Part shown: piece after piece, positions 37,800 through 39,879 of the stretch | How positions within the stretch are numbered: position 1 is the first letter of the stretch | How the letters are laid out: every line of letters starts with the position of its first letter | Source of the DNA: Neisseria sp. MVDL19-042950 | GTDB lineage: Bacteria > Pseudomonadota > Gammaproteobacteria > Burkholderiales > Neisseriaceae | DNA length: 64,000 nucleotides | Assembly: GCF_030504625.1 (NCBI RefSeq) | Contig: NZ_JAUKWH010000001.1 | Location: 248,001 to 312,000 of the forward strand | Direction of reading: 5' to 3' | Program-made: the position numbers and the translations under genes | The notes under the pieces: model-generated | Told to the model about the DNA's origin: nothing | What the model saw: only the letters and a program-made list of their open reading frames with translations | Databases searched by the model: none

Positions 37800-37901
37800 A
37801 TGAATGATTGGAGACGGCGTATATACGCCGGTGGGAGTAGGGTGTGAATGTTTGCGGATGCGGGGCGGGCATTCGTACCCGTTGTTTTATATCGGAAATC
37901 A

Positions 37902-37923
37902 AGGCGGGCGGAAATGCCCGCCT
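37902..37923 (-). terminator. GC-rich hairpin downstream of bioC
   Basis: AGGCGGGC-ggaaat-GCCCGCCT, 27 bp past the bioC stop. Confidence 0.6.
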
Positions 37924-37949
37924 GATTATTTGAACAGGCTGCCGGAAAC

Positions 37950-38729
37950 TTACCAAGCCACAACATAAGTGATGCGGTAATCCAGCGGCAGCATACCGTT
38001 CGGCGCGCGCATGTTTTCGTAGGCTGTCTGAAAACGCTGCCAGCGTTGTTTGCCCGTCAAGCCTTTGTTTTCACGTGCGATCACATGATTGGCGCCGATG
38101 TTTTTCAGGCTGTGCAGCAGGGCTTGGAGGGTGGGGAAATATTGGGTATGCGTTTCGGTGTGTATCCGTAGGTTGGGAAAGCAGTTAAAGGCCGTCTGAA
38201 TTTCGCTTTCGGTAAGGAAGCGGTTGACGTGCGCGGCTTCATCGGCGGCCTGCCATGCCTGTTTGAGCTGTTGCAGGCTGCCTGCGCCGATAGTGGCGAC
38301 GGCCGCGCAGCCGCCGGGCTGAATCACGCGCTGCATTTCGGCGGCGGCTTGTTCGAGTGTGCACCATTGCAGGGCGAGGCTGCTGAAGCAGGCGTTGACG
38401 CTGCTATCGGCGAGCGGCAGGGATTCGGCATCGGCGAGCAGGCAGCAGTCGGCGCGGCGGTGGCGGGCGATGTGTTGCAACATGCCTTCGGCCAAATCGA
38501 GGGCGAGCACGTTTGCGCCGCGACTGCGTATTTTTTCGCTGACCCAGCCGCTGCCCGCGCCGATGTCGGCAACGGTTTTACGGTTGAGGCCGTCTGAAAA
38601 ACGGCTTTCCAGCAGTTGCAGCAAACGCAGCGCAGCCTGCTGTTGAACGTCGGCATACGCGTCGTAACCGGCGGCGGCTTGGCTGAAGGCGCGGGCGATG
38701 AGGTGTTTGGACGGGGTTTCAGACGGCAT
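37950..38729 (-). CDS. bioC: Malonyl-ACP O-methyltransferase BioC
   Basis: VADIGAGSGWVSEKIRSRGANVLALDLAEGML; VNACFSSLALQWC; adjacent to bioF; start codon is within an AT-DUS. Confidence 0.93.
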   Translation of the reverse strand: MPSETPSKHLIARAFSQAAAGYDAYADVQQQAALRLLQLLESRFSDGLNRKTVADIGAGSGWVSEKIRSRGANVLALDLAEGMLQHIARHRRADCCLLADAESLPLADSSVNACFSSLALQWCTLEQAAAEMQRVIQPGGCAAVATIGAGSLQQLKQAWQAADEAAHVNRFLTESEIQTAFNCFPNLRIHTETHTQYFPTLQALLHSLKNIGANHVIARENKGLTGKQRWQRFQTAYENMRAPNGMLPLDYRITYVVAW

Positions 38730-39879
38730 CTTGCAAGCCTTTGATTAGTGTTTCGATATGCGTCGGTTCGTGGGCGGCGGTGAAGGTAATCCGCAGCCGC
38801 GCCTGCCCGACGGGCACGGTGGGTGGGCGGATGGCGGGCACATACAGGCCGTGTCCGCGCAGTATGGCGGATGCGGATAAAGCGGCTTCGTTGCTGCCGC
38901 AGAGAAAGGGCTGGATGGGCGTTTCAGACGGCATCAGGCGTTCCCGCAGGCCGCATTCGGATAAGGCCGTCTGAAAAAAGTGGATATTGCCGCGCAGTTT
39001 GCCGCGCAAATCGTCGGCGCTGCGGATGCGGGCGAAGGCGGCGGAAAGGGCGGCGGCTTGAGCGGGCGGGAAGGCGGTGCTGTAAATCAGGTGGCGGGCG
39101 AACTGAGTGAGGTATTCGGCAACGGTGCGGCTGCACAATACCGCCGCGCCCATCAGCCCGACCGCTTTGCCGAAGGTAACGATCAATATGTCGGGTTGCA
39201 CGCCCGCCGCTGCCGCGCTGCCACGGCCTTCGCTGCCGAGGATGCCGATGCCGTGTGCGTCGTCGAGCAGCAGCCATGCGCTGTATCGTTCACACAGGGT
39301 TTTCAGACGGCCTAAGTCGGCAGTATCGCCGTCCATGCTGAACACGCCTTCGCTGGCCACCAAGATTCTTTTTCCTTGATGTTCAATCAGTTGTTTTTCC
39401 AAAACATCATATTGCCGATGGGCGAACCGCTTAAACTGCGCGGGGCCGAGGGCGGCGGCTTCCTGCATGGAGGCGTGGCAGAGTTTGTCGGCCAGCAGCA
39501 CGTCGTTTTTGCCCAATAAACCGAGCAGCACGGCTTGGTTGGCGGCGTAACCGCTGGGAAACAAGATGGCGCATTCGTAACCCAGCCAATCGGCCAAACG
39601 GTTTTCCAGCGTTTCATGCGCGTCGGTGTGGCCGCTAACCAAAGGCGAACCGCCGCTGCCGGTGCCGTACTGCGCCAAAGCCTGCTGCCACGCGGCGATG
39701 ATACCCGGGTCGCGGCTGAGACCGAGGTAGTCGTTGCCGGCGAAATTGAGATAGCGTTTTCCGCCGTTTTCGAGATAAGGCGGCGTTGTGTCGGCGCAGC
39801 GGGCGGTGCGGCGGCGGTAGGCTCGTTTGGCCGCTTGGCTGTCGAGCGCGGCTTGCAGGTGGTCGTTCCAATTCATCAT
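38719..39879 (-). CDS. bioF: 8-amino-7-oxononanoate synthase
   Basis: MMNWNDHLQAALDSQAAKRAYRRR; FAGNDYLGLSRDP; GSGGSPLVSGHTDAHETLENRLADW; LLLDDAHGIGILG. Confidence 0.96.
   Translation of the reverse strand: MMNWNDHLQAALDSQAAKRAYRRRTARCADTTPPYLENGGKRYLNFAGNDYLGLSRDPGIIAAWQQALAQYGTGSGGSPLVSGHTDAHETLENRLADWLGYECAILFPSGYAANQAVLLGLLGKNDVLLADKLCHASMQEAAALGPAQFKRFAHRQYDVLEKQLIEHQGKRILVASEGVFSMDGDTADLGRLKTLCERYSAWLLLDDAHGIGILGSEGRGSAAAAGVQPDILIVTFGKAVGLMGAAVLCSRTVAEYLTQFARHLIYSTAFPPAQAAALSAAFARIRSADDLRGKLRGNIHFFQTALSECGLRERLMPSETPIQPFLCGSNEAALSASAILRGHGLYVPAIRPPTVPVGQARLRITFTAAHEPTHIETLIKGLQDAV

Follow-up and report, generated by a model that had tools for sequence, protein, structure and literature searches.

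Short start/stop overlaps, of the ATGA type and longer, occur with translational coupling in bacterial operons. The DNA uptake sequences (DUS) of Neisseria are 12-mers for which ComP binding and enhancement of transformation have been described, and TGA is present in all DUS dialects but one (PMC3630211). In N. elongata, an AG-dialect species, transformation with AG-DUS is 1.39 times that with AT-DUS, the latter still being functional (PMC3630211). According to Treangen et al. 2008, DUS are themselves conserved but occupy those places in core genes that are permissive (PMC2397512). Van Passel 2008 listed 30 genes of N. meningitidis MC58 that seem to begin with a DUS, which were excluded in that study as probable misannotations (PMC2346458). 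Our literature search found no report on DUS in combination with overlapping genes or translational coupling, and nothing relevant on fetC/fetD with an uptake sequence. Here we describe a DUS that forms both the end of bioF and the beginning of bioC in Neisseria sp. MVDL19-042950, in a 64,000-nucleotide stretch of DNA analyzed as a whole (the window), and a parallel junction in a permease gene pair.

Results

The 12-mer ATGCCGTCTGAA at 38729-38718 (38718..38729 on the minus strand) is an exact match to the AT-DUS and serves three functions at once, as start codon, stop codon and DUS. Bases 1-3 are the ATG (38727..38729) of bioC (37950..38729, minus strand), a malonyl-ACP O-methyltransferase gene of 259 aa whose ORF scores 208 bits with TIGR02072 (curated cutoff 185). 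Bases 9-11 are the TGA (38719..38721) that closes the bioF reading frame ...GLQDAV*; bioF, encoding 8-amino-7-oxononanoate synthase (38719..39879, minus strand, with the start chosen by the gene finder), scores 435 bits with TIGR00858 against a curated cutoff of 426. The genes overlap by 11 nt, the bioF stop lying one frame over from the bioC ATG, and base 12 is the sole DUS base that is non-coding in both frames. bioF and bioC are a two-gene operon with overlapping ends, and the original prediction that one AT-DUS supplies both the bioF stop and the bioC start is borne out by the two readings of ATGCCGTCTGAA and by the family matches. The accompanying statement that the 12-mer is the entire junction was too strong, given the Shine-Dalgarno-like AAAGG within bioF, 8 nt 5′ of the bioC ATG (38738..38742, minus strand), which is placed as a ribosome-binding site of a coupled pair would be and is retained in the closest relatives and weaker elsewhere. 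Translational coupling of bioF and bioC is predicted and likely. Directly 3′ of the bioC stop we noted, by eye, a GC-rich inverted repeat (37890-37930), likely the terminator of the operon.

The bioC start is secure on sequence grounds, since between an in-frame TAA 18 nt upstream (38745..38747, minus strand), which bounds the alternatives, and BioC residue 36 this ATG is the sole ATG, GTG or TTG, while the conserved BioC sequence IARAFSQAA starts at residue 11. The gene finder also selects the ATG at 38729-38727, and M1 is conserved in 16 relatives.

With 104 copies in the window, where 0.1 would be expected, its core GCCGTCTGAA places the 12-mer in a family over-represented in the manner of a DUS. 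The flanks of these 104 cores are AG in 91 cases, AT in 5 and other in 8, and the whole genome contains 2886 AG-DUS versus 148 AT-DUS (3034 AG and AT 12-mers), which makes the AG dialect of the genome certain and agrees with the predicted preference for AG-DUS around the junction. The junction DUS itself has the minority AT flank in place of the AG flank of the local dialect. AT rather than AG is found here because bioC needs an ATG and AGG cannot start a gene; the proposal that the start codon dictates the flank therefore holds, almost by definition. On a 344-kb contig, the AT flank is found in 7 of the 23 DUS that form a start or are read in sense frame 0, versus 9 of 316 intergenic DUS (Fisher p = 2e-5). 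A second AT-DUS in bioF, in frame 0 (38923..38934, minus strand, encoding LMPSETP and kept in 6/13 relatives), fits this trend of AT for AG, its Met/Leu codon being ATG or CTG in relatives. By analogy with N. elongata, the uptake cost of AT replacing AG would be modest.

Gene starts show no enrichment of AT-DUS: 3 of the 97 examined serve as starts, the figure for ATGs in general being 2.5 percent (p = 0.44), and in two AT-dialect genomes AT-DUS starts are rarer than baseline ATGs (4/602, p = 0.001). Gene starts in this survey are uncurated calls of a simple home-made gene finder, which was run on one 344-kb contig and on samples, together covering 97 of the 148 AT-DUS. The three AT-DUS starts in this genome are those of bioC, a xerD-like gene and an earP-like gene, the latter two (G000:C1:212455-212466 and L173:1501-1512, both minus strand) being named by sequence resemblance only.

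Of 46 Neisseria genomes, 12 have bioF and bioC of this type, and none has just one of the two; BioC is 95 percent identical in the closest genome (G053) and 66 percent identical in N. dentiae (G020). Most of the other Neisseria have no close bioF-bioC match, with distant homologues of BioC or BioF in a few, and the genus thus seems to have two biotin gene sets. The junction in the 12 genomes with the pair is an exact AT-DUS in eight, a DUS with one mismatch in one (ATGCCaTCTGAA) and DUS-free in three. As judged from 20-40 kb samples, the DUS carriers are of AG dialect bar one mixed AT/AG genome (G011), and the three genomes with no junction DUS are G041 and G049, of AG dialect, and G038, of an unusual GCCGTCTGCA dialect. 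The expectation, set beforehand, that same-dialect relatives would always have a DUS at this junction thus failed on G041 and G049, and because these AG-dialect junctions do without one, the DUS is to be regarded as a frequent occupant and not as a required part. Alignment across relatives, as the original prediction had proposed, gives a divided outcome: the exact 12-mer recurs by descent in 8/12, and 3/12 keep an overlap without it, of 14 nt (G041), 14 nt (G038) and 29 nt (G049). In G038, a Neisseria MAG (L068, L074), the apparent dialect core GCCGTCTGCA occurs 28 times in 20 kb and the homologous site in bioF reads ATGCCGTCTGCA; to our knowledge, this core is not among the known DUS dialects.

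Overlap of the two genes extends well beyond DUS carriers. In Neisseriaceae without DUS bioF and bioC overlap by 17-23 nt, G054 has a short gap, and in gammaproteobacteria they mostly overlap, by 1-4 nt in many Vibrio and by some 17 nt in Yersinia, Rahnella and Xenorhabdus. The gammaproteobacterial values come from a scan of genome contigs with the BioC alignment, the matches of which include few Neisseria and are mostly gammaproteobacteria. Since the genes overlap too in the three Neisseria with a DUS-free junction, in DUS-free Neisseriaceae and in gammaproteobacteria, the overlap is independent of the DUS: it is the wider property, and the two are separable.

Of the 12 DUS columns, 11 are invariant across the nine bioF-bioC pairs whose junction is a DUS or near-DUS, as compared with 42 percent of columns for the pair as a whole, and base 12 is A in all nine. 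The surroundings of the DUS vary in these genomes, both in the 5′ flank base and in the bioC residues after MPSE, and BioF ends and BioC starts are quite different in other relatives. Conservation of the junction could in part be plain coding constraint, because hardly any change in the overlap leaves both proteins as they are. In a tree built from BioF plus BioC the deep nodes are weak, so that the junction DUS may have been gained once and lost later in some lineages, or gained several times. No special conservation of the junction DUS was found, its 8/13 comparing with 4-9/13 for the five other DUS in bioF-bioC. Next to the in-frame bioF copy described above, these are two antisense cores in bioC, one encoding FSDGL (38589..38598, plus strand, kept in 9/13 relatives) and one encoding IQTAF (38191..38200, plus strand, 4/13), an antisense core in bioF (38966..38975, plus strand, 8/13) and a sense core in bioF with an AG flank (39302..39311, minus strand, 9/13). 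The junction DUS behaves as an ordinary conserved DUS. As an interpretation, the original prediction therefore stands in that one 12-mer is start, stop and DUS and recurs in 8/12, and it falls short in that the DUS did not give rise to the overlap and the site is not specially conserved.

A junction of the same form was met in a sample of an AT-dialect genome, where two FecCD-family permease genes (Pfam PF01032, fetC/fetD-like by context) overlap by 11 nt in ATGCCGTCTGA (L241:6886-6897 in G028, with homologous sites L265-L294, L359 and L360, and L378 in G081). The 30 Neisseria with adjacent permease genes comprise 23 with an exact AT-DUS, spanning AT- and AG-dialect species, four with ATGTCGTCTGAA, one in which a DUS provides the stop only and the start has moved downstream, and two with none; across 27 genomes the overlap is the sole DUS position in this pair. 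The four ATGTCGTCTGAA genomes are exactly the four mucDUS-dialect genomes (AG-mucDUS 2487-2995 each, at most 334 in any other) and, being a single clade, count as one event. G081, of another genus and with dialect core GCTGCCTGAA, has ATGCTGCCTGAA at the junction, that is, AT followed by its own core, and G076, with the same GCTGCCTGAA core, has an 11/12 match. The change of dialect core alters residues from HAV/MPSE to HVV/MSSE, with AT kept. Thus, the core at the permease junction tracks the local dialect, since the mucDUS genomes and G081 carry their own cores though both proteins change. At bioF/bioC we found no other-dialect genome with its own DUS, so that dialect matching is seen at the permease junction only. 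DUS-free genera have the permease pair with the same 11-nt overlap in other sequence, for example ATGGGGCCTAA and ATGCAGCTTAA, from which it follows that the overlap came first and the DUS moved in later.

Two further observations concern such junctions. G037 (L405) has a GCCTGTCTGA-core, wadDUS-like dialect, with 21 copies in 20 kb, and its permease junction has no DUS. A third dual junction occurs in G028 (L358:1501-1512, minus strand), where a DUS closes an upstream ORF and opens a photolyase gene, and in G017 (L263:19715) the DUS is the stop only.

Discussion

We consider it probable (about 0.8) that a DUS settled in a short, older overlap of bioF and bioC and was kept there. According to this scheme, the overlap in one set of Neisseria would have become ATGCCGTCTGA, at the same time an 11-nt start/stop overlap and a DUS, with the bioC start codon pinning the 5′ flank to AT despite the AG dialect, at a modest cost in uptake. 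The BioF tail and the first BioC residues would tolerate any DUS-encoded amino acids, and ribosomes finishing bioF would probably start bioC in situ, aided by the AAAGG in bioF. We infer that uptake and recombination maintain the bioF/bioC DUS, the core being held by general DUS upkeep, in which tagged DNA is preferentially taken up and recombined, through selection or drive. In general terms, the best reading is that uptake tags colonize permissive, pre-existing overlaps, where the need for a start codon dictates AT in the flank and the core is maintained through uptake.

Alternatively, a DUS fell on the overlap by chance and was frozen there by two reading frames with no role for uptake, as might be argued from the absence of enrichment at starts (3/97 versus 2.5 percent) and the rarity in AT-dialect genomes (4/602, p = 0.001), from the coding role of all DUS bases but base 12 in at least one frame and from a conservation no better than that of the other DUS in the pair. 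We hold this to be unlikely, because the protein tails are dispensable, BioF ends and BioC starts being so different in other relatives, because base 12 is A in all nine genomes although no frame demands it, and because the permease-junction core shifts with the species dialect at the expense of both proteins. A scenario in which the DUS made the overlap, its arrival at the bioF 3′ end giving an early TGA and a new ATG and fusing a coupled unit, would explain why no 11-nt bioF/bioC overlap in Neisseria departs from a DUS by more than one mismatch, with 14 or 29 nt in DUS-free relatives. It is distinctly improbable in view of the overlaps in DUS-free lineages and of the exact 11-nt permease overlap in genera without DUS, and the DUS at most adjusted the length.

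That the true bioC start lies elsewhere and the DUS is merely upstream of it is what van Passel (2008) suspected for the MC58 genes (PMC2346458), and the DUS upstream of the G017 photolyase gene is probably not its start either. At bioC, with no ATG, GTG or TTG from the upstream stop to residue 36, conserved BioC beginning near residue 11, AAAGG at 8-nt spacing and gene finding choosing the same ATG, such an artefact is very hard to credit. Paired inverted DUS are known Neisseria terminators (PMC3630211), and the 12-mer might on that precedent be taken for a transcription terminator or attenuator between the genes. A terminator of this kind requires two inverted DUS a few bases apart, and the junction has no inverted partner, the nearest opposite-strand DUS lying within the genes, at some 120 nt on the downstream and 240 nt on the upstream side; moreover, termination inside the operon would cut off bioC. 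We rejected this candidate and give it next to no chance.

The bioF/bioC junction is therefore a genuine and conserved DUS with dual coding, which belongs to a small recurrent set and represents neither a new mechanism nor a new kind of system. More tentatively, and at somewhat less than even odds, DUS in start/stop overlaps may be a recurrent, conserved Neisseriaceae class in which a change of dialect rewrites the junction, reshaping two protein ends and a coupled-translation signal while the start codon guards the AT flank. The bioF/bioC junction offers a clean natural test of competing pressures, since a single set of bases has to serve two protein ends, a start codon, a stop codon and DNA uptake. 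The permease junction, genus-wide, is the better place for such a test: one homologous site carries three different DUS cores, and DUS-free outgroups share the overlap, so that upkeep of a DUS by uptake or by coding can be examined directly.

Like the short coupled start/stop overlaps of bacterial operons, that of bioF/bioC has a ribosome-binding site inside the upstream gene; unlike the usual ones, its 11-nt sequence is a DUS, and its coupling is a prediction. As in the genes set aside by van Passel 2008 (PMC2346458), the ATG comes from a DUS, the differences being that the bioC DUS is also the stop of the upstream gene, that the start is well supported and that the arrangement is conserved across species. 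It may serve gene annotators as a positive example, true DUS starts having previously been discarded as likely errors. The conserved DUS in freely varying gene ends resembles what Treangen et al. 2008 describe (PMC2397512), start/stop overlaps not being singled out in the passages considered here. With the DUS of Frye et al. 2013 (PMC3630211), the junction shares the exact core, a count per genome close to 3000, comparable with that of other AG-DUS species, and homologous positions kept across species, and it differs from them in having an AT flank forced by a start codon in an AG genome and in sitting on two overlapping genes.
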